A stretch of 37,014 nucleotides of DNA from a virus. A model generated the notes under the pieces. It was not told where the DNA came from and did no database searches. It saw nothing but the letters and a program-made list of their open reading frames with translations. Positions 4,215 to 36,145 of the stretch are shown piece after piece. Where the stretch lies: positions 1 through 37,014 of IMG/VR virus record IMGVR_UViG_3300018080_008431; one strand, 5' to 3'. Within the stretch, counting starts at the first letter, position 1. Each line of letters begins with the position of its first letter. Both the position numbers and the translations under genes were made by a program.

Positions 4215-4242
4215 TTAGCCTGTGGAGTTACCCACAGGCTAA
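4215..4242 (-). other. Perfect 11-bp stem-loop between the virion gene and the methyltransferase
   Basis: TTAGCCTGTGG (4215-4225) and CCACAGGCTAA (4232-4242) are exact inverted copies around a 6-base loop. It lies 15 bases below the stop of the 153-aa gene. On the minus strand no T-run follows, only the Shine-Dalgarno of the next gene. It may be a terminator without a U tract, an mRNA 3'-end protector or a processing site. Confidence 0.6.
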
Positions 4243-4256
4243 AGCGTTATTTTAAC

Positions 4257-4718: not shown

Positions 4719-4760
4719 TATTCATGCCCTCCTGATTTTAGGCCCGAAGAAACTCACTAA

Positions 4761-4794
4761 TACTATTATATCATAATAGTAATTAACTTGCTAA
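4761..4794 (-). promoter_or_regulatory. Promoter with palindrome over the -10 box
   Basis: On the minus strand TTAGCA (4789-4794) and TATAAT (4765-4770) are 18 bases apart, and TG one base before the -10 makes it an extended -10. The -10 lies in an exact inverted repeat, TACTATTAT-ATC-ATAATAGTA (4761-4781), which could be an operator. The same 12 bases CTATTATATCAT recur in the promoter upstream of the protease gene. Confidence 0.55.
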
Positions 4795-5094: not shown

Positions 5095-5095
5095 C

Positions 5096-5215
5096 TTAAT
5101 CCTCCACTATTACATCAACATCGTGACTTTCTTTGTTTAATTCTGCTGTTACTACTTCTGGAAGAAGGGTAACAGGTATATCTAAGTTCTGCATTTCAAA
5201 TGTAGCATCAGGCAT
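5096..5215 (-). CDS. Small acidic protein, 39 aa
   Basis: This 40-codon ORF starts with ATG at 5215, six bases after GGAGG. It overlaps the end of the glycosyltransferase by eight bases and stops one base before the next start. The product MPDATFEMQNLDIPV... is acidic, with no membrane segment. The spacing and ribosome site argue that it is real. No family is recognised. Confidence 0.5.
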   Translation of the reverse strand: MPDATFEMQNLDIPVTLLPEVVTAELNKESHDVDVIVED

Positions 5216-5930
5216 TTTCACCCTCCTTGTTTGTAATTAAATCTTCCACCATCTTTTGTCGCCTACGCTCATTTTCCATCAGCGTTCCATTTATAAAATC
5301 GTAAGTATATTTTGAGTGAAGTAACATTATATCTTTTCTATTTAACGCCTTATCCTTATCATCTAAAATTTTTGTAGCAAAGAGTAAATCCGTATCAGAA
5401 CAATAAGCCGTTTTCCACCTTGACCACTCAAATCTACACCACCACTCTATCTTAGGATTAAACGGGAATCTCCCGTCAAATAATCCTACCTCATTAAATA
5501 CTGCCCTGCGTATCAGAGTAAAGCATAAACCCGAGAACATATATTTTCCGTAAGGCGGTACTATCTTTGTCGCCTCTAACTTAGCTTCAATTACACCTAT
5601 CTTATTATCGATAGTATAATTCCACATCTTGTCAAGCCACATCCTATCTCTAATTAGGATATGAGGGTCAACTATCAGTACCCAAGGATAACGGCCTGCC
5701 CGTATTCCCTGATTCAATGCTACTGCATTTCCTAAATTCCTATCATTAAGAATACAATGCTCGGCTTTCTCGGTTATCCAATTACGGGAAGCATCTTCAG
5801 AATTATTATCAACAATAATCAAGTTATAAGTGCCGTCAATGTTTTCTCTAATAGCTGCTACGCAGGCCTGTAAATAACTATCATTATTCCTATTGACAAT
5901 AATAATATCGATAGCTTCCGCTACTCCCAT
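5208..5930 (-). CDS. Family 2-like glycosyltransferase
   Basis: This 240-residue GT-A enzyme has an N-terminal IDIIIVNRNN strand, the donor-binding loop IIVDNNSEDASRNW (38-51), the ribose/diphosphate segment NLGNAVALNQGI (65-76) and VLIVDPHILIRD (84-95). DPH stands where most relatives have DxD or DPD, a common variant. The second half has WWCRFEWSRWK. It is cytoplasmic, with no transmembrane segment. It resembles the other GT2 gene at 7795-8478, so the two may add successive sugars. The acceptor is unknown. Confidence 0.8.
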   Translation of the reverse strand: MGVAEAIDIIIVNRNNDSYLQACVAAIRENIDGTYNLIIVDNNSEDASRNWITEKAEHCILNDRNLGNAVALNQGIRAGRYPWVLIVDPHILIRDRMWLDKMWNYTIDNKIGVIEAKLEATKIVPPYGKYMFSGLCFTLIRRAVFNEVGLFDGRFPFNPKIEWWCRFEWSRWKTAYCSDTDLLFATKILDDKDKALNRKDIMLLHSKYTYDFINGTLMENERRRQKMVEDLITNKEGENA

Positions 5931-5934
5931 TATA

Positions 5935-6555
5935 TCACCCTTTTACAAAAGCTCCCATCCCCATTTTCTCACCCAACTTTTTATATTCTGGCCTGATACT
6001 CCTAAATATATTCATAGCATCAGTTACTTCTTTATTGGGATAATCGTGTAATACAATTATTCCTCCCTTAACCAACACTTGAGAATACTTAAGTATATCC
6101 AGTAAACATCCGTGAGTACAGTGGTCACCGTCAATAAATATAAATGATGTCTTGCCTATTGTCACAGTAGGAACATCATCACTATATCCTTGAAAAAAGA
6201 CTACCTTCTTATCACCACAGAATTTCTTAATATTAACTTTAGTTTCATCAAGAAAGTCTGCTCCGAATTTCATATCCCTTAAAGTAAATGATTCTTTATA
6301 AGGCCTTTCCTCACCTGCACCCGAACCAGTCTGACAACCGTATTTAAAAGTATCACATAAGCATAATGTACCAGTAATATTATATTTCTGCATACCCAGT
6401 AAGGTAGTACAAGCTGACTTTCCTCTGTGAGTTCCTACCTCTATTAAGTTTTTATCCTTATGCTCCTCGGGTATCTTCCCCACCATTTCCATCAGGAACT
6501 CTAACTCCTCAATAAGACAATGACCTTTAACATTTTTTACATCTTCAAATTTCAT
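5935..6555 (-). CDS. Methyltransferase of the Methyltransf_24/TylF-like type
   Basis: I take the ATG at 6555, which forms an ATGA overlap with the upstream stop, rather than a TTG 27 bases earlier. The product has 206 residues. NLIEVGTHRGKSACTTLLG (36-54) is the SAM site. TSFIFIDGDHCTHGCLLDI gives the acidic metal-binding IDGDH typical of sugar O-methyltransferases, and GGIIVLHDYPN follows. The closing GMGAFVKG resembles the end of the adjacent fusion protein, which suggests duplication of this domain. Its likely job is O-methylation of a sugar in the virion glycan. Confidence 0.75.
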   Translation of the reverse strand: MKFEDVKNVKGHCLIEELEFLMEMVGKIPEEHKDKNLIEVGTHRGKSACTTLLGMQKYNITGTLCLCDTFKYGCQTGSGAGEERPYKESFTLRDMKFGADFLDETKVNIKKFCGDKKVVFFQGYSDDVPTVTIGKTSFIFIDGDHCTHGCLLDILKYSQVLVKGGIIVLHDYPNKEVTDAMNIFRSIRPEYKKLGEKMGMGAFVKG

Positions 6556-7802
6556 TTCTTTATTATAGCTCCTATCCCGCAAGGATGTACCTCACCAAAA
6601 TAAGTAGCATATCCCTTATGCTCCTTCATAGCGAGTACTTCCCTCCAAGCTTGACCGACCTCTGGCCCTATTATATCGTGGAAGATTATCAGCCCGTCTG
6701 TTTTAACCAATTCTTTATAATTATTATAATCGTTCATTACATACTTATATCTATGGTCGCCATCTATAAAGAAAAAATCAAATTTACTTGCTCCAATTAT
6801 TCCTTTTACTTCCCTAATCGTATCTGTCTTTTGTGAATCACCAATAATAAGATGAACTCTCTTATCATCCTTATATTGTTCTCGCAATCCCTCAATATAT
6901 CCCCTCTCGCCTGAATCTACTCCGACTAATAGGCCCTCCCTCTTATCTAATAGCTCATGCCAGAACCTAAATGTACCACCCCGAAATACTCCTATCTCTA
7001 ACCCTCTAACTATATTACCTCTATGAGCCTTAATAAAATTTAGTAAATGCCAGAGTTCGTGTACGTGCTGTGATGGGCCGAATTCCTGATGAGCGAATAA
7101 ATCATTAAACTTTTCCTTAGTTAGCTCTTGCTTCACATTCCATTGTCTTAATATCCTATTATTTATCAGAGAAAAATACCTGCTATCAAAACTTTTCCTC
7201 TCGGGAAAAACTATCACCGGCTCTTTGGTATTGTAAAAGATAACCATATTTTGCATATACCACCAACACTTATTACGGATATCCGTTTCCTTATCCCAAA
7301 AGTATGGCCTGATATCATATAATTTATATCCGAACTTCCCGAATATCTTAATCCAATAACTAAGATACTGCTCGTTAATATGGCCTCTCCCGCCCTGATA
7401 AGGTATGGCTGATGAAAACAATATCGTATTACTTAACTCTGTTAAGCCTTGCACAAATGATTCTGCCTTCTCAGGCGGTAAATGCTCTGCTACTTCTAAA
7501 CAGAGAGCTAAATCGTACTTATCATGATTATCATATCTCAATGGCTCGTTTAAATCTCTAACCACGAATTTATCTTGAGGTATTCTTAATTTATCAACCG
7601 GTACCCAAGAGCCATCAACTCCAACATAATCCTCTATCCCGTAAGTCTCAAAGACACGAAGCCAGTCACCCAGACCGCACCCTACATCTATTACTGAGCT
7701 GATAGGATACATCCTATCAAGAATAATAGGCACGGCCTCCTTTGCGAACTCTCTTGTAGTATCGCCGAATAAATCCCAATCTTTTTGTTCGTAATCACTC
7801 AT
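6552..7802 (-). CDS. Two-domain methyltransferase fusion
   Basis: I place the start at the ATG at 7802, overlapping the upstream stop by eight bases. Upstream TTG (7856) and ATG (7853) starts would add up to 18 residues. The 416-residue product holds two SAM domains. Domain one (about 30-200) has SVIDVGCGLGDWLRVFE and LCLEVAEHLPPEKAESF. Domain two (about 265-416) has RGLEIGVFRGGTFRFW, FFFIDGDHRYKYVMNDY and LIIFHDI, the Methyltransf_24 pattern also seen in the next gene. Both sites look intact. It may methylate two positions of one sugar chain. Confidence 0.75.
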   Translation of the reverse strand: MSDYEQKDWDLFGDTTREFAKEAVPIILDRMYPISSVIDVGCGLGDWLRVFETYGIEDYVGVDGSWVPVDKLRIPQDKFVVRDLNEPLRYDNHDKYDLALCLEVAEHLPPEKAESFVQGLTELSNTILFSSAIPYQGGRGHINEQYLSYWIKIFGKFGYKLYDIRPYFWDKETDIRNKCWWYMQNMVIFYNTKEPVIVFPERKSFDSRYFSLINNRILRQWNVKQELTKEKFNDLFAHQEFGPSQHVHELWHLLNFIKAHRGNIVRGLEIGVFRGGTFRFWHELLDKREGLLVGVDSGERGYIEGLREQYKDDKRVHLIIGDSQKTDTIREVKGIIGASKFDFFFIDGDHRYKYVMNDYNNYKELVKTDGLIIFHDIIGPEVGQAWREVLAMKEHKGYATYFGEVHPCGIGAIIKK

Positions 7803-8478
7803 ACTCTGGTAAATTCTTTCCTGTCCTTTTCTCAAATAATGCTCGGTCAGCATCAATTACTTTCTTTCTGTTTTCCTTCTCTGAACCAAACAATGTAGTA
7901 CCACCCCACATATGAACACACTTAGCTGAATCAACTTGAAGGCAGTTTAGATTTGTTTTCTCGAGTAGTCGGTCAGTAAATAAAGTATCATCAAAGAACA
8001 TTTTAAAGCCCTCATCAAATAATCCTACTGCCTCAAAGCACTCCTTCCTGATTAAAGCAAAGCATAAGCCCGTCTTAAACCCGCCTTGGTCATGGTAAAA
8101 AGAATAAACTTTAGCATAGAATATACCTACCGTCCTATTGGCTATCATATGATTCCACATTCTTTCTAATGCTCCGTTCTTGGTGATAAATACATCACTA
8201 TCAAACAGAAATACATTATCATAATTACCGCCATTTAACTCTTTTGCTTTTAATACTATCTGATTTCTGGCAGCAGCTATTCCTTTATTTTCCTTATTCT
8301 CAATCAATATATCATCCTCGCCTAATTCCTGCTTTAATAGCTGTACAGTGCCATCGGTTGAGCCATTATCAACTGCTATCACAGTCTTTTTTGTTTTACA
8401 AGATTGATTGAGGAAAAAGAAGAAAGGCCTAACTAATTCTGCATTATTACAAAATAATACGCCTACATTTAACTTCAT
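7795..8478 (-). CDS. Family 2 glycosyltransferase
   Basis: This 227-residue GT-A enzyme has VIAVDNGSTDGTVQLL (33-48), the classical GT2 donor loop, NKGIAAARNQ (64-73), and VFLFDSDVFIT (89-99) with the DSD metal motif. A later LFDEGFKMFFDDTLFTDRLL matches the region with the catalytic base (an ED-like acidic pair). No membrane helices are seen. It sits between the GT8-like gene and the methyltransferase fusion, with overlaps on both sides, and is part of one translation unit. Donor specificity is not readable. Confidence 0.85.
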   Translation of the reverse strand: MKLNVGVLFCNNAELVRPFFFFLNQSCKTKKTVIAVDNGSTDGTVQLLKQELGEDDILIENKENKGIAAARNQIVLKAKELNGGNYDNVFLFDSDVFITKNGALERMWNHMIANRTVGIFYAKVYSFYHDQGGFKTGLCFALIRKECFEAVGLFDEGFKMFFDDTLFTDRLLEKTNLNCLQVDSAKCVHMWGGTTLFGSEKENRKKVIDADRALFEKRTGKNLPEYE

Positions 8479-9380
8479 TGTTCCTCCTTCATACAGCAGG
8501 GGTGAACCCTGACGCCCTTTAATTCTGTTTTACAATTACAAGCTTTGAATATCTCTATCAATTCAACCTGAACCCTCTTATCCAATTTGTAAAATACATC
8601 CCAGAATACACTATCATTTACAAAGTGTTGCTTAAATGAATCAATATAGATTTTATGCTCGGGGTCTTTACATAATACTTCCCATCTACCCTTTATCCGT
8701 GAGTGGCCTAAATGTAGGCCGTGATATCTAAAAAAACTGTGCTGTGGATATTGAAGTCCTGCCAGAGATATCAGAACCCAAAGTGCGTGCTGATTATCTG
8801 GTCGCTTCCAAACCTCATTATTGAACTCGGGAGGCATACCATCCTTTAGTATCTCTGAGTATTTAGTCATTACGGGGAGCATCAACCTCAAATAGGGTTC
8901 TACCATGAAGAAATGTAAGCCCGTCATCCGATGGCCTCTGGTATCTGGCGGGTCTATCTTATCTGTATTTGAATAAGAAGTCTTATATCTTTTACAAACT
9001 CTCATATGCTGAGTAAATATATCCTCTTTCTCGGGAGTAAAGAGAATATCTATATCACCGATATAAACACACTTATATTGAAGAAATATCTCTGGTGAAT
9101 AAACCCAACGCAAAGTCTTGATAACATTACTATCAACTGGATAATCTGCGAACACTCCCTCTTTAATTGTTACCTTATCTTTCGGGCATCCGATAACCTT
9201 TAATACTTCTCTATTAAGAGTTTTTAATTCTTCCGACAACGAGCCTTTTACTAATATCAGATAGTCATATTCAGGATAGGAGCTTAAAGCACAATAAAGA
9301 AAGATAGGAATATACTGCTGATAATACTCTCCCATCACAAACATTGTTACCAATAAATTCTTCTGGTTTAGCATATTCAT
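8475..9380 (-). CDS. GT-A glycosyltransferase, GT8-like
   Basis: This 301-residue protein has an N-terminal LLVTMFVMGEYYQQYIPIFL, a middle VIKTLRWVYSPEIFLQYKCV, then YIGDIDILFTPE, where DID (109-111) is the metal-binding DxD. TGLHFFMVEPYLRL and NEVWKRPDNQHALW follow, as in GT8 and related enzymes that move sugars from UDP or GDP donors with retention. It overlaps its neighbours by four bases on both sides. The C-terminal tail contains four Cys. The acceptor is unknown, and the GT8 placement is by pattern only. Confidence 0.65.
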   Translation of the reverse strand: MNMLNQKNLLVTMFVMGEYYQQYIPIFLYCALSSYPEYDYLILVKGSLSEELKTLNREVLKVIGCPKDKVTIKEGVFADYPVDSNVIKTLRWVYSPEIFLQYKCVYIGDIDILFTPEKEDIFTQHMRVCKRYKTSYSNTDKIDPPDTRGHRMTGLHFFMVEPYLRLMLPVMTKYSEILKDGMPPEFNNEVWKRPDNQHALWVLISLAGLQYPQHSFFRYHGLHLGHSRIKGRWEVLCKDPEHKIYIDSFKQHFVNDSVFWDVFYKLDKRVQVELIEIFKACNCKTELKGVRVHPCCMKEEQ

Positions 9381-11134
9381 CTATTTATTTGCTCAAACTC
9401 CATTACTATTAAATCTAATGCTCCCTGCCTTAATATAGAGTGATGCCTGATACCCCACAAATGCATCTTCAATTTCTGATAGTCATCGCCTACTGGTAAT
9501 GATACAACTATTCTACCATCTGGCTTACATACCCGCTCAAGCTCTTTTAAGCCTTCAGCCATTGATGGAATATGCTCGAGGACTTCACCGCACATTACAG
9601 TATCAAATGAATTATCTGGGAAGGGTAGCTTTCTGACATCGGCATATTGAGCCCTGATGCCTTTCTTCTTCATCCTCTCTATCCGTATTTTAGAAACCTC
9701 GGTTGCCGTTACTGTATATCCTCTTTTCTGAAGTACCTCGACACAATAGCCATCACCGGCTCCCACCTCAAGTACAGTCTGGCCTTTAACTCTTGACATC
9801 ATAGTTTCAATTCTATCGTATTGCCAAGGACTGGCTTTATAATGCTTTTCGTCAAGCACTAATTCAAGAGCAAACTTTTCATTAACATCTGACTTATCAT
9901 ATCTGGGAATTTTCTCCATAGGTTTTTGCTTAAGAGCCTTTTGAATAGCTTTATAAACTATATCTGGAGTAATGCTATTCATACAAGGAACGGGGTAAGG
10001 CTTTCCCTTCGGACACTCCCTCCACCACATATCAGTAGTCCACCAACAATCTTTACAATCAGTTGTCGGCTCTACATTAACATTACATTCATATTCAAAG
10101 AATAGTCTTGAAGTAGGCCCAAACAAAACAACACTCCTTGTCGCCATCGCTCGAGCAATATGTACTAATCCTCCCTCGGAATCAATATGCAATTTAGCTC
10201 TGGCCAGAAATGCGGCCGTCTGCTTAATAGTACTTCTTCCTGCCATATTTATAGCACCCTCTATTGGTTCTTCACAGGAAGCACCTAACTGTATTACCTT
10301 TATTCCGTCTTTCTTTAATTTAGATACTAATTTTGTCCAATGCTCTGCTGACCAACACTTAGTCTGCCTGCTGACATCTGCTCCATTGTGTATTGTAATA
10401 TAATTATCACCCTCAAGGAGAGCGAGCATATCATAATCTCGGTCTTTCATATTGATAAACATATCATCTGGACTACCTACCAGATTAGCTGATAAGAGCA
10501 TCAAATCATACTCATTTAATTTAAATGTCTTGGGTATCTCGTTATTAGTGTAAGGAAAAGTATCATATAGGTCTTGATATTGCTTAAAAATATCATCTGT
10601 TATCTGCTTATCTTTGGCAAATGCCTTGTGGTCTTTATAATATACCTTAGTCATATACCGATTATCATAAACAATATCATAATCTTTGGTTAATATTGAG
10701 CGTTCAACAAAAGTAGCCCAAACTTTATTACCCACCTGAACCACTCTATTTACGTCAGGATGGCCTGAAATAATATCAGCACCACTCTTATCCCTGATAT
10801 ATAAAGTTATAAAAGACTTTGGATATTTTCTCTTAATAGCAGTAGCCAAACCTGCGAGAATAAGCGAGTCACCGATACCGCCTAATCTTATCGCAGCTAT
10901 TTTAAGATAGCCCTCGGGTGCGTGAAGTACTGGAGCAATAGATTCTGCTGTGTCCTTGTCAAGTTTATCTGGGAGTGGTAAGGGTGAAAGTGGAGTAACT
11001 TCTTCTGCTACTTTAGCGGTATGTACTAAATAATAAGCGAGATTATAATCTACATTATATTCTTTACCCGCTTCAAAATTTCTGTCACCGCATCCGTAGC
11101 TTCCAGTTTTATTTTTGAGTCTTATTTTTGGCAT
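9377..11134 (-). CDS. Family 9 glycosyltransferase fused to a SAM methyltransferase
   Basis: This 585-residue fusion has three parts. Residues 1-45 (IRLKNKTGSYGCGDRNF, KEYNVDYNLAYYLVHTAKV) look like a small phage head-associated fold. Residues about 78-400 are a heptosyltransferase-like GT9: IAAIRLGGIGDSLILAGLA, YITIHNGADVSRQTKCW, LHIDSEGGLVHIARAM, VVLFGPTS. Residues about 430-585 are a class I methyltransferase: TVLEVGAGDGYCVEVL, TVMCGEVLEHIPSMAEGL, GRIVVSLPVGD. Many Cys lie between the two enzymes (DCKDCWW). It is the first gene after the capsid gene. GT9 enzymes normally use ADP-heptose or similar donors. Here the acceptor may be the capsid itself, which is inference. Confidence 0.8.
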   Translation of the reverse strand: MPKIRLKNKTGSYGCGDRNFEAGKEYNVDYNLAYYLVHTAKVAEEVTPLSPLPLPDKLDKDTAESIAPVLHAPEGYLKIAAIRLGGIGDSLILAGLATAIKRKYPKSFITLYIRDKSGADIISGHPDVNRVVQVGNKVWATFVERSILTKDYDIVYDNRYMTKVYYKDHKAFAKDKQITDDIFKQYQDLYDTFPYTNNEIPKTFKLNEYDLMLLSANLVGSPDDMFINMKDRDYDMLALLEGDNYITIHNGADVSRQTKCWSAEHWTKLVSKLKKDGIKVIQLGASCEEPIEGAINMAGRSTIKQTAAFLARAKLHIDSEGGLVHIARAMATRSVVLFGPTSRLFFEYECNVNVEPTTDCKDCWWTTDMWWRECPKGKPYPVPCMNSITPDIVYKAIQKALKQKPMEKIPRYDKSDVNEKFALELVLDEKHYKASPWQYDRIETMMSRVKGQTVLEVGAGDGYCVEVLQKRGYTVTATEVSKIRIERMKKKGIRAQYADVRKLPFPDNSFDTVMCGEVLEHIPSMAEGLKELERVCKPDGRIVVSLPVGDDYQKLKMHLWGIRHHSILRQGALDLIVMEFEQINR

Positions 11135-11198: not shown

Positions 11199-12155
11199 TT
11201 AAGCACTATGTTTAACATTAGTAGCCTTAACTGCTGCTGTTTCTTCTTCAAGTTTAACATCGGCTCTTAATGTCATAGTAACCTCTATAATTCTCTTGCG
11301 TGGTTGACGCTGGAATTCATACGTAATATCCCTGTGAATACCGAACACGATATTCTTAGGATTGATTAGAAGGGCCTTACTACCATTAGTAGTACCAGTA
11401 CCTTCAGTAATGGTTTCAGTAACGATGCCCGGCACCTTAACTACTGGAATACCATTATAGGCAGGCTGTTTAGCTTCAATGAGGTAACGAACAAAAGCTT
11501 CGTTAACACCCTTATCTGCCAAGGCCTTAACATAATCTAATCTTGATAAATGAGATACATAGAATCTCATCTTTGACTCATCGACATCGATGTACTTACT
11601 TGGCATCTTTTTCAAGATTTTGTTTAGTACTGTGTCACTCATTGTAGCTGCAAGAGCATCATAAGTGTAAGTACTAATTTGCTTAAAGACACCATCAAAG
11701 ATGTCTAAATAAGTGCCTGTAGCACCTGCTGAATCACCATTAAGAATTAGCTTATCCAACTCAAAAGCTACCTCTTTATTGGTTAAATTAAGGATGGTCT
11801 GGAATAGGCCATCGCCTTCTATATTATCTTCAAGTGCGTCATAACCTAAGTCAATCGCACAGATAATCTCTTGTGCATCCAAAGTAACTTTGGATGTGGT
11901 TGGTTTTGAAGTGGTTGTCGGCACAACGCCAACAGCGTTTGGAATTTGTAAGATATCACTTGCATAAGTGATTTTATCTATTTGTCTTTTGTTTGCCTTC
12001 ATTGGCTCTCTACGACACTCTGGCAGTATTATCGAATTGTCTATGACACCCTGAACAAACTTCGCAGCTTGGTCTGGATTCAATAGACCACCAGTTAAGT
12101 CGGAGGTTGTGAAGGCTTTTTCTAAAATTTGGTCAATTGTCAATCTATTTTCCAT
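11199..12155 (-). CDS. Major capsid protein, HK97 fold
   Basis: This 318-residue protein is the probable shell subunit. It follows the protease and scaffold genes, has the length of HK97-type capsid proteins, and carries typical stretches. These are an N-terminal helix, then ITYASDILQIPNAVG, then a DLGYDALEDNIEG helix, ELDKLILNGDSAG, a central FYVSHLSRLDYVKAL spine-helix region, YNGIPVVKVPGI, and the P-domain end ITYEFQRQPRKRIIEVTMTL. A good RBS (AAGGAGGAATTGAG) precedes the ATG. The N-terminal 50 residues may be cleaved by the upstream protease, which I cannot show. Confidence 0.85.
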   Translation of the reverse strand: MENRLTIDQILEKAFTTSDLTGGLLNPDQAAKFVQGVIDNSIILPECRREPMKANKRQIDKITYASDILQIPNAVGVVPTTTSKPTTSKVTLDAQEIICAIDLGYDALEDNIEGDGLFQTILNLTNKEVAFELDKLILNGDSAGATGTYLDIFDGVFKQISTYTYDALAATMSDTVLNKILKKMPSKYIDVDESKMRFYVSHLSRLDYVKALADKGVNEAFVRYLIEAKQPAYNGIPVVKVPGIVTETITEGTGTTNGSKALLINPKNIVFGIHRDITYEFQRQPRKRIIEVTMTLRADVKLEEETAAVKATNVKHSA

Positions 12156-12199
12156 TTCTCAATTCCTCCTTGTTCTCAAAAAATTATGCCTTCGACTAA

Positions 12200-12670
12200 T
12201 TAGCCTCTAACAGCTTTGCCGAACGGGTCTTTCTTAACCTTGTCTGTTGACTCCTCCTCGCCTTCAATAGAGGTTCTCACCCCGTACTTCTTGCCAAGAG
12301 CATCAATGATTTTCTTGAAATGACCTGTTATGGTCTCGAGGTTAGCAAATCTCTTTTCGAGTGCTTCCTCTTTCTCTTTCTTTTGGGCTTCGATTTCCTC
12401 GGCTTCCTTCTTTTGCTTTTCAGCAAGTTCGGCTGCTTCGGCTTCCTCTGCCTTTTTCTTTTCGGCTAACTCGGCTTCTTGAGCTTCTTGCTCCTCCTTA
12501 GCCTTTTTCTCAGATTCAATCTTTTCAGCTTCAATCTGAGCTTTTTCTTCCTCTGTCAATAATAGTTTGTGTTCTTTCAGAGTTGTCTCAATTAAATTTT
12601 GTTTTTGTGTGATTACTTCGACAGAGGCAGATATTGTCTGAAGTTGCTCTAAAATTTTTTCCAATTCCAT
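12200..12670 (-). CDS. Probable nested scaffold protein from an internal start
   Basis: Within the preceding gene and in the same frame, ATG at 12670 (Met249) has AGGAGG eight bases upstream, as strong as any start in the window. The product would be 156 residues, MELEKILEQLQ onward, almost wholly coiled coil. This mirrors lambda, where the scaffold Nu3 is made from an internal start within gene C. Use of this start is inferred from the RBS and domain boundary. Confidence 0.5.
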   Translation of the reverse strand: MELEKILEQLQTISASVEVITQKQNLIETTLKEHKLLLTEEEKAQIEAEKIESEKKAKEEQEAQEAELAEKKKAEEAEAAELAEKQKKEAEEIEAQKKEKEEALEKRFANLETITGHFKKIIDALGKKYGVRTSIEGEEESTDKVKKDPFGKAVRG

Positions 12671-13414
12671 CGTACTTGCCTCCTGTTTACTTTTAGAATA
12701 TCTTGCTTCAGCTTCTTCCGTCATCTCTGATAGCAAGGTGATAGCTTCTTTTAACTTTTGCAGGCGACTGCGGGATATAATTCTGCCTGCTTTTTCAACC
12801 TGAAACTCCCGCTTATTTGCGATTACCTCATCAACATTATCAACGATAAACTCTTGGAATTTATTGCTGATACCAGAGATAACCTTATCTGGCTCTTTCA
12901 AACGATTATAGCTCGTCATCACGTAAGCCATAGCCGCCTTCATATACGAAAATGATTCATAGATAGCAGCAACGCTCAAGCCTCGGGCAAAAGGCTTCAT
13001 TATTTCTTCTTTAGTGAGTTTCTGTTCTTCGGCATCTTCCTGCTTCTCTATTGACATCTTCGATAGTACATCTATCAATATGGATTCAAATTCACCAAAA
13101 GATGATTTTAAATCCTTAATAGAAATCGTTTCGTATAGGGCATCCCATACTTTTTCTTCTAAAACTTCTACTGCAGCTTGAGTGGCTTTATAAAGAAAAG
13201 CCTCCTTAAAGCTGAAGGTAACAAGTTCTTTCTCGTAGTATTGTTCGACTACTTGGTATTTTTCAATATGTTCTGGAAGTAATTTATCAATTACTTCATC
13301 GTTTCGCCTCTTGAAGATAACCATCTGAGCATCAGGCACACAAGGCCTGTCAACAATAGCTATCCTATCAACTTTTGAAGCGTGTAATCTGTGTTTTGCT
13401 TTAGGTTTGGACAT
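12200..13414 (-). CDS. Prohead scaffold-like protein with XkdF-like N-terminus
   Basis: This 404-residue protein has three parts. Residues 8-36, HRLHASKVDRIAIVDRPC with VPDAQMVIFKRR, match the start of phage head maturation proteins (XkdF-like). Residues 45-240 are helical. Residues 250-360 are a long E/K/A-rich coiled coil, the hallmark of internal scaffolding proteins. The short end KKDPFGKAVRG is basic and could touch the capsid protein. No catalytic set is visible here. Protease activity more likely belongs to the preceding gene. A strong internal start at codon 249 would give the coiled-coil part alone. Confidence 0.7.
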   Translation of the reverse strand: MSKPKAKHRLHASKVDRIAIVDRPCVPDAQMVIFKRRNDEVIDKLLPEHIEKYQVVEQYYEKELVTFSFKEAFLYKATQAAVEVLEEKVWDALYETISIKDLKSSFGEFESILIDVLSKMSIEKQEDAEEQKLTKEEIMKPFARGLSVAAIYESFSYMKAAMAYVMTSYNRLKEPDKVISGISNKFQEFIVDNVDEVIANKREFQVEKAGRIISRSRLQKLKEAITLLSEMTEEAEARYSKSKQEASTMELEKILEQLQTISASVEVITQKQNLIETTLKEHKLLLTEEEKAQIEAEKIESEKKAKEEQEAQEAELAEKKKAEEAEAAELAEKQKKEAEEIEAQKKEKEEALEKRFANLETITGHFKKIIDALGKKYGVRTSIEGEEESTDKVKKDPFGKAVRG

Positions 13415-13434
13415 TACTCCTACCTCCTAAAAGG

Positions 13435-14205
13435 TTACTCGTCCTCAATCGGTGTCCTCACACCTGATATGCGAACAGAGAAGGCTTTATATTCTCCCGA
13501 GAGTACTTTATCCCATACCTCGGTATCATGGATTTTTATTGCTCCGAACCAAGTGCCTTTTTCTAATTCAGTACCATAATAATTTAAGCCATCTTCCCAA
13601 GCAATAGATGATTCTACTATCTCGGCCTTAATTATATTTTTGTGCATTTCATCAATAGTGCGATACTCAACAAGGAATTCGTGGGCTACCTTTTCGATAT
13701 CATCTACTGATATAACATCACCATCGTGGTCTGGCTTTTCTGGTACCAAAAATACACCATAAACTATTTGCTTCTGCTTGTCAATCTTTAGAAGTGACAT
13801 TTCAGATATTTTTTCTTTAGGCTTAATTCCCATAGTGAACTCCTCTATTTCTTTTGTCAGTACGAATTCACCCGACTCCTGACTTATATCAAACTTTTCA
13901 GTAGTACCTTCATCACCTTTATAAGTAGCCACTACTCCCAAGATAAAAGGCTCTTGGTCTACTTCTAATGGCTCAATCTTTTCAAGGGATTTAGTATGCT
14001 CTGATACCCACGCTTTTGCCTTCTCCATAGTCCATCCTTTAGATTTGGCAAATAAGTAGGTAATTATTTTCTTGTCATCAACACAATAAAGGCCTTTTAT
14101 ACCTTTTTCTTTTGAAACGATGATAGTGCGGATTTTATGGTTTGAATGTTTACCTTCTTCACCGCTTACAGGTACTCGAATATTTTTGTCATTTTGTTCT
14201 GGCAT
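13435..14205 (-). CDS. Prohead maturation protease, XkdF-like
   Basis: This 256-residue protein has a C-terminal domain (about 136-250) that matches the XkdF putative phage serine protease family (Peptidase_S78_2). It reads QIVYGVFLVPEKPDHDGDVIS, the DEMHK motif with H188, IVESSIAW with S199, KGTWFGAIKIHD and the closing YKAFSVRISG. The first 130 residues are a less conserved charged extension. It would trim the scaffold and capsid protein during head maturation. H188, E198/S199 and S243 are the candidate catalytic residues. The gene has its own promoter-like sequence and precedes the scaffold and capsid genes. Confidence 0.8.
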   Translation of the reverse strand: MPEQNDKNIRVPVSGEEGKHSNHKIRTIIVSKEKGIKGLYCVDDKKIITYLFAKSKGWTMEKAKAWVSEHTKSLEKIEPLEVDQEPFILGVVATYKGDEGTTEKFDISQESGEFVLTKEIEEFTMGIKPKEKISEMSLLKIDKQKQIVYGVFLVPEKPDHDGDVISVDDIEKVAHEFLVEYRTIDEMHKNIIKAEIVESSIAWEDGLNYYGTELEKGTWFGAIKIHDTEVWDKVLSGEYKAFSVRISGVRTPIEDE

Positions 14206-16613: not shown

Positions 16614-18389
16614 TTATACTACCATTGCCCTTAACTGACCACTATATTCTTGATTCTCTATTATGTTATGAACAACTCCACAAACAGCATCGCAAACATC
16701 CTTCGAGCCTTTCGGTGGATGGTCAACCTTCTTACCTTCTATCTCCTCTAACCGCATAGCTTCCTGAACATACACTTCCGATGCAGTTGGATTATCTGGG
16801 TCATTAACATTTTTTACATAATAGTAATCTATCCTCTTTTCATTAACAGCTGCCTTCCAGTTATTGTAAGGCAACATCGTTCTATCTACTGATAAATACT
16901 CTGCATTATATCCTTTCTTCTGAAGTAACTGCATAGAATCCGTACTCTGAAAGCCATCGAAGGTTATTAGATTTATTTTAAATCCTCTCTGGGTAAGTGC
17001 GTAAATATACTCCCTTACCTTTGCTATCTGGACTGGTGCTTCCTTACTGCCCTGCATACGGAGCATAAGGTCTATGAATACGATAGCACTTCCTTCTTCG
17101 GTGTAACCTGCATTATGGCCCATTGCGAACCCGCAGGCATCACCCGAGATAGCAAGGTCAATATGTATCGAGTGAAAAGCATCCCTATCTATCGGTCTGA
17201 ACCAATCCTTAAACCTTCCCATACTATCTACTGGTTCTTCTTTCCGTAGCTGATTATGACTCTCAAGCATTATTCGAGGATTTTCCAAGAAAGCTTGTAT
17301 TGTTCCTGATGGATGTGCGCCAAAATCTCTAAACGCTTTCGTGACATTAGCTCTAAAGGCCTTCCACAAGAAAGGCACTCGAGGTATTTTGACTATCTCT
17401 GTCATATCGGCAGGAGGCCCGTCAAGTATTTTCCTCTCTACTCTATCAACATAAAAAAACTCACCCGACCAGTCTGAATACTTAGCATCCCAAAGTGTTC
17501 TTCGTCTTGAATATACTCTTGAATCAGGCTCATCGCCTTCGTGTAGCTTCTTTTCAAGAAAATCATTTTCATATAAAGGTGAACCTGCAAGGATAAGTGC
17601 GCCCTTTTCCTCAAACCTTGAACCTAATCGTCTTTGGAGTGCGTGATAAATATCTTCTGCTTGGTCTGAGTTATCTGTGGTACGGTACGAGCCTGCCTCA
17701 TCCATAATACCGACAACGATATTATATCCGACAGCAGTTCGCCAAGAAGATGAGCCGGGGATTATAAAGGTATTATTTTTAAATCTTAATTCAGATAAAC
17801 AATTAGGGTCAGGTACTCTCGCATCAGGCCTATCCCAAGGCCGTTCTTGAAACCATTGACAAGAGTTAATCTTCGACATTATTTCTGAAAAGATAACTTT
17901 CTTTGCGTTCTTTTCAGAAATAGACATATTCATTATGGCTATTTTTGAAGATTTATCTACACCGAAATATTCTTGAGGACACCTTAAACAAAGTAAAAGG
18001 TGCTGAAAGTATGTGGCTATTATTGAAGTCTTAAAAGATTTTCCTGAACCGATACCCTCGCAGAAAGCAGCCTCATCGTAAAATCTATCCCAAGGATTAT
18101 CGTCTTTAGTCTTAAAAAAATTAACGATATCCTCCATTACCGAAGCCCTGATGACTTTCGATAAATTAAGATACCGTTCACCCGTTATCCACTCTTTAAT
18201 ACCAACTGGAGCCCAACGCCAAACATCAGAATTAAGGCCCATACCTTCAAGGAGAGCAATGTTAAATCTCTCATCAGCAACCGTATCTTCAAATGTAACC
18301 TCATCCGAAGCCTTAACATCACCATCTTCAGGTATTTTATCTGGCTTTAATTCTTCTTCAACCTGCTCAATTAAGTTCTTTTCGTTCAT
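16614..18389 (-). CDS. Terminase large subunit
   Basis: This 591-residue packaging motor and nuclease has Walker A GIGSGKS at 112-118, Walker B VVGIMDE at 226-231, and the coupling segment ALILAGSPLYEND at 264-276. The nuclease domain shows HIDLAISGDACG with D411, ITFDGFQST with D478, and GSKDVCDAV with D564/D567, an RNase H-like acidic set. All key residues are present, so the gene looks intact. It starts 23 bases inside the small-subunit gene and is followed by the portal. Which packaging mechanism it uses (cos, pac or headful) cannot be told. Confidence 0.9.
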   Translation of the reverse strand: MNEKNLIEQVEEELKPDKIPEDGDVKASDEVTFEDTVADERFNIALLEGMGLNSDVWRWAPVGIKEWITGERYLNLSKVIRASVMEDIVNFFKTKDDNPWDRFYDEAAFCEGIGSGKSFKTSIIATYFQHLLLCLRCPQEYFGVDKSSKIAIMNMSISEKNAKKVIFSEIMSKINSCQWFQERPWDRPDARVPDPNCLSELRFKNNTFIIPGSSSWRTAVGYNIVVGIMDEAGSYRTTDNSDQAEDIYHALQRRLGSRFEEKGALILAGSPLYENDFLEKKLHEGDEPDSRVYSRRRTLWDAKYSDWSGEFFYVDRVERKILDGPPADMTEIVKIPRVPFLWKAFRANVTKAFRDFGAHPSGTIQAFLENPRIMLESHNQLRKEEPVDSMGRFKDWFRPIDRDAFHSIHIDLAISGDACGFAMGHNAGYTEEGSAIVFIDLMLRMQGSKEAPVQIAKVREYIYALTQRGFKINLITFDGFQSTDSMQLLQKKGYNAEYLSVDRTMLPYNNWKAAVNEKRIDYYYVKNVNDPDNPTASEVYVQEAMRLEEIEGKKVDHPPKGSKDVCDAVCGVVHNIIENQEYSGQLRAMVV

Positions 18390-19942: not shown

Positions 19943-20746
19943 TCACTCAGCAGGTTCTAAACCCACCTGTGCTGATTCACTCACCCCTGCATCTTCCTTC
20001 GGTGTTTCTTCCTCTGGCGGTGGTTCGTGAGCACCCATTATACCTAATACATCCTGAGCCATTAGCAATAGGCACTTTCCTCTTTCTTCGTCTATGTCTA
20101 CCTCGGGTGGAAGAAAAGCTTTCATCTTAGTCAAAGCACGGTCGATTACATCCCTATCCTCGGGATATATAGCAAAGCTTATGATAATAGGGTCTTTCAT
20201 TTTAGGGAACTTTTCGGGGTCACCCGCATCGCTGAAAGGCGGTATTTCTGGGTTCTCTAACTCTGGAAGCTCCTCAAAGGACATATAGCTTTCTATCCGA
20301 TTCCGTTTCATACCTGTTAAATCCTCTATATCCTCAATAAGCATACCATCTTCAAGGGCTAATCTCAATGCTTGGCCCATCTTGATAGCGTTTTCCTCAC
20401 CATGCTGAAAATTATAAGCAACAGTTGATACTATTGCCTCTTTTCTGGTTAGTCCTTCACCGCTTGGCCCTTTCATCATAGCACAGAGTATTTCCTTTTC
20501 ATCTGGGAATACTTCCATAAATGCCCTGAGTCTATGCTCGCCATCTACCAATACGTAAGGAGTATCTTGAGGGTCGCCTAATTCCTTATTAGTTACCCTT
20601 ATTTTTAAGGGGTCTGTGAATCCTACACTCCTGATATGATTCACTAAGCCTTTGTATTTATCCTTCGCCATTTCTTGCGGGTTATAATCATTTGGCGATA
20701 GGTCAACAATTTTGATTTTCTTTAAATCTGGTTCTGGTAATCCCAT
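19943..20746 (-). CDS. ParB-like (ParB/Srx fold) protein
   Basis: This 267-residue protein starts with IKIVDLSPNDYNPQEM, has the HIRSVGFTDPLKIRV segment and the family signature VLVDGEHRLRAF (65-76), then a helix-turn-helix-like region (about 137-157, IEDIEDLTGMKRNRIESYM). This is the ParB N-terminal domain, which in plasmid ParB binds CTP and in phage relatives may be a nuclease or DNA-binding regulator. The C-terminal third is acidic and Pro-rich. No ParA is seen. It lies close to the terminase genes, where ParB-like proteins are often found in phages. Confidence 0.8.
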   Translation of the reverse strand: MGLPEPDLKKIKIVDLSPNDYNPQEMAKDKYKGLVNHIRSVGFTDPLKIRVTNKELGDPQDTPYVLVDGEHRLRAFMEVFPDEKEILCAMMKGPSGEGLTRKEAIVSTVAYNFQHGEENAIKMGQALRLALEDGMLIEDIEDLTGMKRNRIESYMSFEELPELENPEIPPFSDAGDPEKFPKMKDPIIISFAIYPEDRDVIDRALTKMKAFLPPEVDIDEERGKCLLLMAQDVLGIMGAHEPPPEEETPKEDAGVSESAQVGLEPAE

Positions 20747-21114: not shown

Positions 21115-21360
21115 CTAACAGCAACCACAGCCACAACTACGAATACCCTTACTGCTTTCTTTCCAAGAAGCAAAATCTTGACACCCCTCTGGAGTCATCT
21201 TTGATATCTCCTCTCTTTGAGGCCCTGTAAGGTCTGTTACTTCACAACAAACCTTCATCTTTAAATCAGAGTGTCCTTTAATATATCCTGCTCCGAACGC
21301 AAAATAGAATTCAACTATCATTGCTATGATGAAAACAATTACTATTATCGCTATTACCAT
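21115..21360 (-). CDS. Membrane-anchored Cys-rich protein, 81 aa
   Basis: This 81-residue protein has an N-terminal transmembrane helix (about 2-24, VIAIIVIVFIIAMIVEFYF) and then a polar domain with CC at about 38-39, one Cys near 60 and the final CGCGCC. The Cys pattern hints at metal or disulfide chemistry in the polar part. It starts at the last base of the upstream stop. Function unknown. With the tiny lipoprotein downstream it might form an inner/outer pair, but this is weak. Confidence 0.55.
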   Translation of the reverse strand: MVIAIIVIVFIIAMIVEFYFAFGAGYIKGHSDLKMKVCCEVTDLTGPQREEISKMTPEGCQDFASWKESSKGIRSCGCGCC

Positions 21361-21587
21361 TACTCAACCTCCAACGACTTTCTTACTTCGGACTCTATTG
21401 CTTTGGCTAACTTATTTGGTGCATAATCTCCTGATAATCTTACTATCTGTTTATTAGGATAGGGATGAGTAAATTCATAAGCTGTTAACGATACCTCTTT
21501 GATTATCTTTTCTATCTGTTCTACACTTAACAACCTCTTGGCGATTTCGGATTTGTAAAACTCTTTTAACAAATCTTCGCTTTCCAT
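21360..21587 (-). CDS. Hypothetical protein, 75 aa
   Basis: This is a 75-residue charged, helical protein with a central YEFTHPYPNKQIVRLSGDY. It shares its start base with the stop of the radical SAM gene and so is coupled to it. No family is recognised. It might be a partner of the radical SAM enzyme or simply a co-transcribed early gene. Confidence 0.5.
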   Translation of the reverse strand: MESEDLLKEFYKSEIAKRLLSVEQIEKIIKEVSLTAYEFTHPYPNKQIVRLSGDYAPNKLAKAIESEVRKSLEVE

Positions 21588-23539
21588 TACTCAACCTCCT
21601 GTACTACTCCCGTTAAATTCTCTTTACCGAAATAATCCTTTCTATTTCCACAAACACCTTTCTTTGCTACATCAGGCATATTCTTTATTATACCGCATTG
21701 ATGGCAATCGTGATTACATCCTGAAGTTTCCTCTGCCTTCCTTGCCTTCTCATATTCAGACCAGAAGTACTCTTTATCTGTTCCGATATCAATTATATCC
21801 CAAGGAAGTGGGTCATCATATTTTAATTCTCTTAGCGTATCATCAATATTATACCCGTGCTTCAACTGCATATAAGTCTTAACGCCAGTCCACAGCTTAG
21901 AATTTGACTCACCCCAATCCTGCTGTGAATATATGTTATATTTAATAATAGTCTTTATCATAGGAACGCAGAACCTACGGTCTGACCTATCGAGTAATGC
22001 TTCCAACTTACGGCCTGCCGGTGAACCTTTAACATTTCGCCATCCTTTTACCACATCCTTTTTCAGCTTCTCATCCCAAACTACATAAGAGCCATCATTG
22101 AATTTATCGTTATATATCCTCACAAAATCAGCCATCCAAGGACTCTCTTTATACTCGCACCATTGAAAGGGAGTATGAGGTTTTGGAATAAACGGATTAA
22201 CGGATAACTCAATAGAGGACATAGGCCTTATTTCTCGGCTTACCTTCCACATTTCATCCATTAGATTATGCAGGTCTATTACATCTTGCTGAGTCTCAAA
22301 CGGCAACCCAACCATACACATTACTTTCGTTCTGATAATGCCCTCTCGAATAGCCATTTTAAAAGCATCCCAGAACACCTTACTACCTAAATGCTTATTA
22401 ACTACCCTCCTCATCCGAGGATTAGCTGCTTCAAGAGCAAAACAAACTGAACGCTTACGCCTATGCTCATTCCAAGTCCTCTCGAATTGGTCTATCCGCT
22501 CTGAATACCCGTCATACTGAATACCCAAGCTGATAGCATAATCTCTGGCCTCATTGTATCTTGAATAGTCGGTAGGTGTCAGGCCCATCATCCTTACTGT
22601 ACCCATATCTTGACGAGATTTAATAGCATCTAACACGCCTTGAAAGTTTCGTTCTCTATATGGTTTATACCAATTAAAAGGCGCACAGAAGCGACAACCG
22701 TGAACACATCCCCTTGTTACCTCGACATCCTTTGTCAAATATAATCTGTTTCGGGCAACATTTTTATTATAATCGGTAATAGTATAATTATATTTAGGGT
22801 CAGAGATATCAACCTTCTGAAACTGAACCCTATCTGGCGCACCTTCCCAAAGTTTTTTCATCCCTGCATAGCGTTTAGTCTCGGGGTCAAAAATATTTTC
22901 ATAGAATCGGGGTACATAGCAGCCGGGGATTTGTGCTATCGCCTTGAGGATTTCTAATTTCTTCTTGCCCTCTTTCCTCATATCCCGAATTGTCCTGACG
23001 ATAGCGGGCGCACCATCCTCACCTTCACCGATAAACATTACATCAAAAATTGGTGCAAGTCCTTCTGGTGCAGTATTTAACACTCCTCCTGCGACAAGGA
23101 TAGGCCATCTTTCATCCTCTCTTTGTTCTGCGAGGAAGGGAATTTTAGCATACTTGAGTATCTGAACAGCATTACAGACATTGGGAGTAAAGAACATACT
23201 CAATCCGAGGACATCAAATTCTCGGAGCGGTATCTTTGTTCCATATCCGAATAACGGTATGTTATTACTTGTTAATGCTTTTCTTACGGCAGGTTCGGGT
23301 AAGTAGCAATAGTCAACGCAGATATCTTCGATATGAGTTAAGACATTATGGATAATATGAACACCCATCATGCCTGCTCCCGTAAAGTAGGGAACGCAAT
23401 GTACCAGAGCTACCTTAAAATCAGAGTCCTTACAGGGAGTATCAACATCGAACATCCCTTTAATAGCATCGTCAGTTCTATCACCTTGTAGTTTATGACC
23501 TTTAATTACATTTTTAAAAGCTCTTGCATCTATTCTCAA
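21587..23539 (-). CDS. B12-binding radical SAM enzyme, TIGR03960-like
   Basis: This 650-residue enzyme starts at a TTG with AGGGG five bases upstream. Residues 42-180 form a cobalamin-binding-like domain (KVALVHCVPYFTG, VLGLSMFFTPN, VAGGVLNTAPE, FIGEGE) without the DxHxxG motif. The radical SAM core (about 265-460) has C278, C282 and C285 in VTRGCVHGCRFC for a 4Fe-4S cluster. The C-terminus PLPWDIIDIGTDKEYF then C608, C612, C615 (CNHDCHQCGI) matches the end of the TIGR03960 family of unknown bacterial radical SAM proteins. The reaction is unknown. RNA, protein or nucleobase modification are all possible. Confidence 0.8.
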   Translation of the reverse strand: MRIDARAFKNVIKGHKLQGDRTDDAIKGMFDVDTPCKDSDFKVALVHCVPYFTGAGMMGVHIIHNVLTHIEDICVDYCYLPEPAVRKALTSNNIPLFGYGTKIPLREFDVLGLSMFFTPNVCNAVQILKYAKIPFLAEQREDERWPILVAGGVLNTAPEGLAPIFDVMFIGEGEDGAPAIVRTIRDMRKEGKKKLEILKAIAQIPGCYVPRFYENIFDPETKRYAGMKKLWEGAPDRVQFQKVDISDPKYNYTITDYNKNVARNRLYLTKDVEVTRGCVHGCRFCAPFNWYKPYRERNFQGVLDAIKSRQDMGTVRMMGLTPTDYSRYNEARDYAISLGIQYDGYSERIDQFERTWNEHRRKRSVCFALEAANPRMRRVVNKHLGSKVFWDAFKMAIREGIIRTKVMCMVGLPFETQQDVIDLHNLMDEMWKVSREIRPMSSIELSVNPFIPKPHTPFQWCEYKESPWMADFVRIYNDKFNDGSYVVWDEKLKKDVVKGWRNVKGSPAGRKLEALLDRSDRRFCVPMIKTIIKYNIYSQQDWGESNSKLWTGVKTYMQLKHGYNIDDTLRELKYDDPLPWDIIDIGTDKEYFWSEYEKARKAEETSGCNHDCHQCGIIKNMPDVAKKGVCGNRKDYFGKENLTGVVQEVE

Positions 23540-23582: not shown

Positions 23583-23611
23583 ACTATATCACAATATATT
23601 ATAACAATCAA
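23583..23611 (-). promoter_or_regulatory. Sigma-70-like promoter for the radical SAM gene
   Basis: On the minus strand TTGATT (23606-23611) and TATAGT (23583-23588) are exactly 17 bases apart, in the 77-base gap after the 145-aa gene. The predicted transcript start is near 23576, about 37 bases before the TTG start, which supports that start. Confidence 0.6.
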
Positions 23612-23616: not shown

Positions 23617-24054
23617 TTATTCTTCTTCTGAATCAGAATCACCTGCTCTACCAACTCTCTTGTCGTGTTCAGACTGAGCTGCATCGAGCTTCAAAGTAAC
23701 CCTCTTTATCATTTCATTATATTGAGGCATTGGTACCTGCTGATTCCAGTATTTCATAAGAAACCTAAAATCTTCAGCTTCAACTTTAACATTCTCGGTT
23801 GAATCAGCTTCTATTGCTTGATTTAATGTATCTCTTAAAGCCCACAACCTTCTTTGCTCCCGCATTTCTAATCCCTTCTTCCTTTCCTGACATACAAGGA
23901 AGAAAGATTGCTCAACCAAATTCATAAATCCTTTTGCGGGTGTCATTTCTTTACCATCTTTTCCCTTACCAACTGCGCCCTGTAAGCCCTCTAAATCTAT
24001 ATTCATATCGAGATAAAAAGGCTCACTATCTAAGTTTTTCTTTTTCTTTGACAT
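23617..24054 (-). CDS. Hypothetical protein with acidic tail, 145 aa
   Basis: This 145-residue protein begins MSKKKKNLDSEPFYLDMNID, has a helical middle (FFLVCQERKKGLEMREQRRLW, then FRFLMKYWNQQVPMPQYNEM) and ends with DSDSEEE. No enzyme motif or Cys cluster is present. The basic start and acidic end suggest protein-protein or nucleic acid contact. It overlaps the end of the RusA-like gene by 29 bases and ends just before a promoter. No family is recognised. Confidence 0.55.
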   Translation of the reverse strand: MSKKKKNLDSEPFYLDMNIDLEGLQGAVGKGKDGKEMTPAKGFMNLVEQSFFLVCQERKKGLEMREQRRLWALRDTLNQAIEADSTENVKVEAEDFRFLMKYWNQQVPMPQYNEMIKRVTLKLDAAQSEHDKRVGRAGDSDSEEE

Positions 24055-24598
24055 TTTTCCCTCCCATATCTAATAATTCTTTGTGAGGAGTTAAAACATT
24101 TTTAAGTTGAGATAAGAAGTCACCCGAAAATACAAGGCGATGCTTCCTAATCGTAACCCGCAACTCCTCGGCCTGATTTTTGTCATCAACTTTAGTTACA
24201 GCCCAACATCCTTTAACATACTTAATCCTATCATCTGGCCACGCTAAGCCATTTAAAGCGTCATTTACTCCTTTGATTAAATTATCCACATCTATCTTCC
24301 TGTGAGTACACAACTGAAAATAATAATAAACAAATACTGGCTCAGTAAAAGTATAACCACATTGTTCCCGATAAGTCATTGCCACTAAATCTTTCCAAGC
24401 ATACCAATTTTCAACTATCGGTCTTTTCTTCCAGACATCGCTACGCACTAAACGAGGTTTTGACCTAAGTCTTTCAGTAATTATTCTGAAAGTGACCTGC
24501 GATGGATTCTTCTCCATCCCTCGATGAACTCCCAAATCTTTTTCTCCTCGCCTTGTAATTCTTCTGGGTTTAGCTTTCCGTCTTTTACTAACTGCCAT
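24026..24598 (-). CDS. rusA: RusA-like Holliday junction resolvase
   Basis: This 190-residue nuclease would cut recombination or replication junctions. The core shows KIDVDNLIKGVNDALNGLAW (101-120) and PDDRI, with D103, D105, D113 and D122/D123 as the metal-binding Asp set of RusA. SKPRLVRSD (46-54) matches the N-terminal strand. The first 27 residues are very basic and overlap the HNH gene by 118 bases. An alternative ATG at 24517 (Met28) would give 163 residues, nearer the usual size. The upstream GGTGG at 24598 keeps the long form possible. Confidence 0.8.
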   Translation of the reverse strand: MAVSKRRKAKPRRITRRGEKDLGVHRGMEKNPSQVTFRIITERLRSKPRLVRSDVWKKRPIVENWYAWKDLVAMTYREQCGYTFTEPVFVYYYFQLCTHRKIDVDNLIKGVNDALNGLAWPDDRIKYVKGCWAVTKVDDKNQAEELRVTIRKHRLVFSGDFLSQLKNVLTPHKELLDMGGKNVKEKEKLR

Positions 24599-35444: not shown

Positions 35445-36062
35445 TTAAACCTCTGCTTCTTCATAGGCCTCAACTATCAACCCGTAAGCTTTTCTTATCC
35501 TCTTTATGTTCCCATAAGCTTTAGGTATAGATACTCTCAATATCTTTGCTATTTGTTTTGTGGTCTTTTCTTCGGATAGTAAATCTAAGGTCTGTAAAGT
35601 GGGTTCTCTATTACTCTTATCTATCGCCATTTCATTTATAGCACTCTGTAAATCTTCTATTAAAAATCCTGCTTCATATACCTCTGGGTTTCTTGGTTCG
35701 GGTATCTGAAAATCGTTGGTTATAAATTGTATTGTGGCCTCTATTGTTTTAGTTTTCCTATATCCTTTTCTCAATATCGGGTGCCTTCTTCTTACTTCTT
35801 TTCTTATCCAACTTCTCGTAACCGACTTAGACCTATTAAAGGCCCAAGTCTCAAAACTGGCCCTTTCTGGATTATATTCTTTAAATTTTTCAAATATGTT
35901 TATCAAAATTTCCTGTTTTAAATCTTTACTATCGTGTTCTTGGAGAGTCTTTCTTCTGGTATGTCCTTCTAACCTTACTTTCTTTTCCCACTCGGTTATC
36001 AACTCATTAAAAAATCTTTTGTCCTCCTTTGTTTTGACAGCCAGTTTTGTGAGTTCCGTCAT
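35445..36062 (-). CDS. Sigma-70-like RNA polymerase factor
   Basis: This 205-residue protein has a region 2-like segment (about 46-95: KQEILINIFEKFKEYNPERA, SFETWAFNRSKSVTRSWIRK) and a region 4-like helix-turn-helix (about 158-192: LLSEEKTTKQIAKILRVSIP, KAYGNIKRIRKAY). The size and lack of region 1 and 3 are like ECF sigma factors. It could direct host RNA polymerase to phage promoters, such as the extended -10 sites at 4761-4794 and 14224-14253. The link is inference. It has a strong AAGGAGGGG site and a clear promoter upstream. Confidence 0.75.
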   Translation of the reverse strand: MTELTKLAVKTKEDKRFFNELITEWEKKVRLEGHTRRKTLQEHDSKDLKQEILINIFEKFKEYNPERASFETWAFNRSKSVTRSWIRKEVRRRHPILRKGYRKTKTIEATIQFITNDFQIPEPRNPEVYEAGFLIEDLQSAINEMAIDKSNREPTLQTLDLLSEEKTTKQIAKILRVSIPKAYGNIKRIRKAYGLIVEAYEEAEV

Positions 36063-36117: not shown

Positions 36118-36145
36118 AATATAATATATCATATGGCAAAGTCAA
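36118..36145 (-). promoter_or_regulatory. Sigma-70-like promoter for the sigma factor and polymerase genes
   Basis: On the minus strand TTGACT (36140-36145) and TATATT (36118-36123) are 16 bases apart, five of six matches to consensus in both boxes. The predicted start is near 36111, leaving a leader of about 50 bases before the ATG at 36062. It is the best promoter match in the window and is probably used by the host polymerase early in infection. Confidence 0.7.

Follow-up and report, generated by a model that had tools for sequence, protein, structure and literature searches.

The virus record analysed here at its whole length of 37,014 bases (the window) encodes a B12-type radical SAM (rSAM) enzyme which, as judged by sequence comparison, is a relative of the TIGR03960 family that forms a separate deep viral branch and is not a curated member; we consider this identity and family assignment close to certain. 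The best overall explanation that we can offer, and a tentative one, is a phage-specific class B rSAM enzyme that belongs to a deeply branching viral lineage within the TIGR03960 group and would act on a substrate in the translation apparatus.

The rSAM gene and its phage locus

The window is a genuine tailed-phage record, with genes for terminase, portal, head morphogenesis, protease and capsid proteins. The terminase, portal and capsid proteins share about 30-35% identity at best with those of known phages. Other genes encode a 1137-residue Pol III alpha, SbcC/D-like proteins, a UDG-superfamily protein, RusA and a sigma-like protein. Positions 1-1791 (minus strand, open at the contig end) encode a low-complexity protein in which (V)YDEILSITEDV-like repeats occur many times; it is probably a tail or other structural component. 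Genes for glycosyltransferases and methyltransferases follow one another at 2797-11134 (minus strand) beside the capsid genes, and 9377-11134 encodes a fusion of GT9-like and methyltransferase domains. The rSAM gene and the features around it are as follows.

16614..18389, minus strand: large terminase subunit, which marks the window as phage
19943..20746, minus strand: ParB-like protein, a conserved downstream gene with 60-67% identity in relatives
21115..21360, minus strand: 81-residue open reading frame with a hydrophobic N-terminus and a CGCGCC end, not found in relatives
21360..21587, minus strand: 75-residue open reading frame that overlaps the stop codon of the rSAM gene, with no counterpart found in relatives
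21587..23539, minus strand: B12-type rSAM gene, 650 residues, assigned from domains, profile and model, with purifying selection among relatives
23583..23611, minus strand: candidate sigma-70-type promoter TTGATT-17-TATAGT, assigned from conservation in aligned upstream regions
23617..24054, minus strand: 145-residue protein of unknown function, encoded ahead of the rSAM gene in all relatives (29-34% identity)
24026..24598, minus strand: RusA-like Holliday junction resolvase

On the minus strand the rSAM gene spans 650 codons without interruption, and the plus strand there is stop-rich. Its TTG start is plausible because the relatives start with TTG or GTG at the equivalent position, after purine-rich sequence. 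The first-pass annotation had described an intact enzyme of this length with a B12-type domain, a CxxxCxxC motif and a C-terminal CxxxCxxCG, and this is confirmed by Pfam and by the minus-strand frame. The parts of the protein are encoded as listed.

22910..23425, minus strand: N-terminal Rossmann B12-type domain, residues 39-210 (PF19864 at 59-210), from Pfam, model and structure match
22160..22744, minus strand: radical SAM barrel core, residues about 266-460 (PF04055 at 272-426), from core alignment to MgmA, CysS and TsrM
22685..22708, minus strand: CVHGCRFC, the radical SAM cluster motif, residues 278-285 (C278, C282, C285)
21692..21718, minus strand: C-terminal CNHDCHQCG, residues 608-616 (C608, C612, C615)

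In Pfam the protein matches PF19864 (Radical_SAM_N2, E 1.6e-37) and PF04055 (Radical_SAM, E 8.9e-15, 55.7 bits against a gathering score of 29.5), and the latter match contains the CxxxCxxC motif, which places the protein in the radical SAM superfamily. PF02310, the B12-binding family, scored 19.7 bits and thus fell short of the 32.1 bits set as its cut-off. The N-terminal domain contains GGVLNTAPE..FDVMFIGEGE. The C-terminal CNHDCHQCG is probably a second metal site; a further cysteine lies beyond it at position 630, and similar clusters occur in many bacterial relatives, so the cluster is not specific to phages. C278, C282 and C285 are among 27 residues that are invariant across 53 phage and cellular relatives (alignment A5). 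The enzyme had no match in PHROGs or among the defence-system families of PADLOC.

Whether the gene occurs in other phages had been posed as a check, and it is present at the same locus in four of them. Alignment-based scans of 2.9 million viral contigs found it in five further contigs, two of which (L003 and L004) represent a single virus (99.9% over 32.5 kb); three such scans gave only these five and one bacterial-looking 4-kb contig. Below, the five phages are the window phage and these four. The rSAM gene lies downstream of the RusA, HNH and 145-residue protein genes and, where the contig continues, upstream of the ParB-like and terminase genes; L004 ends within the rSAM gene, and in L089 and L090 additional sequence separates it from the 145-residue protein gene. 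Identity to the window copy is 71-77%, the highest of all shared proteins (59-61% for Pol III alpha, 61-66% for terminase, 66-74% for capsid). Between L002 and L003 the rSAM gene has a dN of 0.076 and a dS of 1.45 (dN/dS about 0.05), and the gene is under purifying selection, with strong constraint among the relatives.

The gene had been placed among phage recombination genes. This describes its upstream side, with RusA, SbcC/D-like and HNH genes, and not its downstream side, which has ParB-like and terminase/portal genes. Modification of nucleotides or of bases in phage DNA would suit the DNA metabolism genes nearby (RusA, SbcC/D-like, UDG, Pol III alpha) and the ThyX encoded in L002. However, no known base hypermodification genes were found among the proteins scanned, and the bacterial relatives have no link to DNA modification in the contexts examined, which makes such a role quite unlikely.

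The proposal that the gene has its own promoter fared differently at two levels. In the window sequence alone the candidate is no better than chance, as a single-sequence scan gave 15 sites where 12.3 were expected. In the aligned upstream regions, by contrast, all five phages have CTTGAC(A/T)-like and TATAAT-like hexamers 17-18 bases apart, which read TTGACA-17/18-TATAAT or TATATT before the rSAM gene in the four other phages. The strict pattern has only one other match in the window, at 36118-36145 (minus strand), and more in some relatives; this match precedes the gene of a sigma-70-region-2 protein (35445-36062). No Rfam riboswitch match was found before the rSAM gene, and the leader folds no better than its shuffles.

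The promoter also bears on a role in small-molecule or glycan chemistry, such as C-methylation of a sugar displayed by the virion or by the envelope of the host. The phage has several genes for glycosyltransferases and methyltransferases, some of them common to the relatives, and L003 has a nucleotidyltransferase. The rSAM gene, however, is separately promoted and lies about 10 kb from the glycosyltransferase cluster. In bacteria, its relatives are associated with DUF2344 and, in the case examined, with ribosomal genes. We regard a glycan or small-molecule substrate as unlikely.

Several other features were observed in the related contigs. The SbcC-like ATPase of L003 (1198-3207) has an intein-like insert (PF14890, 46.3 bits), and a second intein-like insert lies in the C-terminal part of the L002 terminase (11537-13480; 31.1 bits, below cut-off), adjoining an HNH endonuclease gene; the window copies of both genes are without them. 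Upstream of the rSAM gene, L089 (5136-5220) and L090 (9120-9203) carry tRNA-like genes (RF00005, 43 and 47 bits), found in these two viral contigs only. Their anticodon arm is some 15 bases over normal length; the inserted core GGGATGCNNGCTATAAACTCGGAA is conserved, and the acceptor stem varies on both sides.

Placement among radical SAM families

TIGR03960, a hypothetical equivalog domain of NCBIfam, matches residues 39-620 of the window protein over profile positions 26-600 of 605 (E 2.8e-92). The score of 310.2 bits does not reach the curated cut-off of 462.3 bits, and the L089 homolog scores 310.9 bits. This is almost six times the score of the next-best family, TIGR04013 (53.5 bits against a cut-off of 251), and no better match to another radical SAM family was found; TIGR04013, BchE, RimO, HpnR and others were rejected at about 53 bits or less each.

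In the phylogeny that had been proposed as a check, the phage and cellular sequences group against TIGR04013 and its relatives with support of 100/99, on long branches. The phages form a single clade with a stem of 3.0 changes per column. The earlier term TIGR03960-like therefore holds for the wider group, but the phage protein remains below the curated cut-off on a separate deep branch. Cellular sequences fall into a half linked to DUF2344 (PF10105/TIGR03936) and a half of paralogs. In the free tree the phage clade stands beside the DUF2344-linked half (95/85), while the alternative with the paralog half has an AU p of 0.275, so that the phage clade may belong with either half and its grouping with the DUF2344-less paralogs is neither shown nor rejected.

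True DUF2344-linked TIGR03960 proteins share with the phage enzyme full-length homology, PF19864 and PF04055, the CxxxCxxC motif and the 27 invariant residues, and they often have a C-terminal cysteine cluster as well. They differ in that the phage protein scores 310 rather than 462.3 bits or more, has 24-32% identity to them and has no DUF2344 in the phage records.

A search of 84,980 bacterial and archaeal species by exact motif patterns, which could miss relatives without those patterns, gave no homolog more than 32% identical to the phage enzyme among the best 80; there is therefore no sign of recent host origin. It is very improbable that the gene was captured with host DNA, came in as contamination or persists as a decaying passenger. 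Some viral-looking isolated contigs with TIGR03960 and DUF2344 do look bacterial (L091 and the faecal scaffolds L006-L008), and one phage copy (L090:9956-11931) is broken by two one-base frameshifts, which may be sequencing errors or decay. Against this stand the shared syntenic place in five phages at 71-77% identity, the low dN/dS and the lack of any cellular homolog above 32% in the exact-motif scan, and the possibility that this segment is host DNA, raised at first pass, was rejected. Separately, positions 1-10735 of MW495066.1 (L005, "Microcystis phage MaAM05") look more bacterial than viral, with trpS, mqnC, ispG and, at the end, a cyanobacteria-type TIGR03960 paralog.

Fold and predicted chemistry

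The AF2 model of the rSAM enzyme has a pLDDT of 83.6 and a pTM of 0.87. Its top match by VIA is MgmA (PDB 9ccb; Z 19.7, rmsd 3.7, 366 aligned residues, 17% identity), followed by CysS (16.7), TsrM (15.4) and TokK (15.0), with MiaB and RimO at about 14.5; the top ranks in Foldseek are OxsB, TokK, TsrM and CysS. The model aligns across both domains to MgmA, CysS, TsrM, TokK and OxsB, which assigns it the N-terminal domain of the class B enzymes. On the basis of this model the phage enzyme would probably carry out class B, cobalamin-dependent methyl transfer, most plausibly to an RNA or a protein. It may instead use other radical chemistry, since MiaB, AprD4 and RimO share much of the fold. The class is not new to phages, because B12-type rSAM proteins of uncultured phages are present in BFVD (A0A6J5LGQ4, A0A6J7XS70 and others); these share the broad fold class and a viral origin with the enzyme described here, but are other COG1032-type proteins with 11-15% identity to it.

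In the proposed reaction, a [4Fe-4S] cluster on C278, C282 and C285 would cleave SAM to give a 5'-deoxyadenosyl radical, and the radical would abstract hydrogen from an unreactive carbon of the substrate. Methylcobalamin in the N-terminal Rossmann domain would then donate the methyl group, and the second metal site held by the C-terminal cysteine cluster would serve structure or electron transfer.

The comparison with MgmA raises the question of a protein substrate. MgmA (TIGR04014), the methyl-coenzyme M reductase glutamine C-methyltransferase, has the same combination of B12-type Rossmann domain and radical SAM barrel; cobalamin sits in its Rossmann domain, and a cleft accommodates an extended peptide (PMC11796369). 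It differs in being archaeal with a known protein substrate (PMC11796369), and the phage protein scores 21.2 bits on the MgmA profile against a curated cut-off of 360. A protein methylase like MgmA could C-methylate a non-ribosomal protein of phage or host, such as a virion protein or the 145-residue neighbour, whose gene precedes the rSAM gene in every relative. MgmA is the best match by structure (Z 19.7 against 16.7 for the next) and by profile as well (E 1.2e-18). However, the class B fold does not fix the substrate, as CysS, TsrM and TokK score next and act on others, and the low conservation of the 145-residue protein (29-34%) is not what a fixed target site would show. We consider such a protein methylase somewhat unlikely.

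DUF2344 and the candidate substrate

DUF2344 is adjacent or fused to TIGR03960 in 38 cellular loci and three faecal scaffolds, and the proteins above the TIGR03960 cut-off are mostly those adjacent or fused to it. Several genomes (G011, G014, G016, G019, G021 and others) carry both a DUF2344-linked copy and a shorter, sub-cut-off paralog without DUF2344, and this division into linked and partner-free copies explains the TIGR03960 cut-off. Because the paralogs coexist with the DUF2344-linked copy, the TIGR03960 group may hold more than one function. These paralogs (from Desulfobacterota, Vampirovibrio/cyanobacteria, Chloroflexota and others; 326-437 bits in those tested) resemble the phage enzyme in scoring below the cut-off and having no adjacent DUF2344. 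DUF2344 was absent from the six phage records, all of which may be fragments, in searches with Pfam and with our own HMM at maximum sensitivity, and by hhalign the 145-residue neighbour is not a divergent DUF2344.

In a Sporomusaceae genome (L019) the gene order is rodA-like, TIGR03960, DUF2344, RNase E/G, L21, Prp and L27. The DUF2344 protein of this locus was modelled.

L019:7751-8473: modelled DUF2344, with 32 further DUF2344 proteins in alignment A8

The model has a pLDDT of 96. Its first 26 Foldseek matches are TruA, PUS1, PUS3 and PUS10 enzymes together with related mitoribosome assembly proteins, and the best rows from VIA reach Z 13-15 over about 205 of 233 residues. All 50 structure matches listed are pseudouridine synthases or relatives, and the predicted fold of DUF2344 is thus that of a pseudouridine synthase (TruA/PUS) over its full length. 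DUF2344 may bind RNA as a relative of these enzymes without being an active synthase, because its loop matching that of TruA has no conserved counterpart of the catalytic Asp, in a weak, short alignment with uncertain loop assignment. The literature searched did not name TIGR03960, described no role for DUF2344 beyond incidental mentions and held nothing on a split of the TIGR03960 family into DUF2344-linked and partner-free copies.

The predicted pseudouridine-synthase-like fold of DUF2344 and the RNase E/G, L21 and L27 neighbours point to RNA as a reasonable target for the TIGR03960 family in bacteria. By analogy, we infer that this RNA link may extend from the bacterial pair to the partner-free phage enzyme. 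Its substrate would then be a macromolecule of the host translation apparatus (a tRNA, an rRNA or a ribosomal protein), and the enzyme, expressed from the phage's own promoter, would modify it in the infected cell. That the substrate belongs to the translation apparatus is possible, at somewhat less than even confidence. Several observations stand against this explanation: the nearest solved structure is a protein methylase and not an RNA enzyme, the phages are without DUF2344, the score is under the cut-off and the stem is very long. A more specific proposal is that TIGR03960 and DUF2344 form an unrecognised RNA-modifying pair, in which DUF2344 would be a PUS-like guide without the catalytic Asp, and that the phages have a free-standing, strongly conserved version that would remodel host tRNA or rRNA in the course of infection, either borrowing the host DUF2344 or independently of it; we hold this extension to be rather doubtful.

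As the best-conserved gene shared among these phages, the rSAM gene encodes a product that matters to the phage, and it provides a second, partner-free system to assay. For the bacterial pair, the PUS-like fold predicted for DUF2344 raises a concrete question, namely whether TIGR03960 and DUF2344 may place a B12-dependent methyl mark on RNA.
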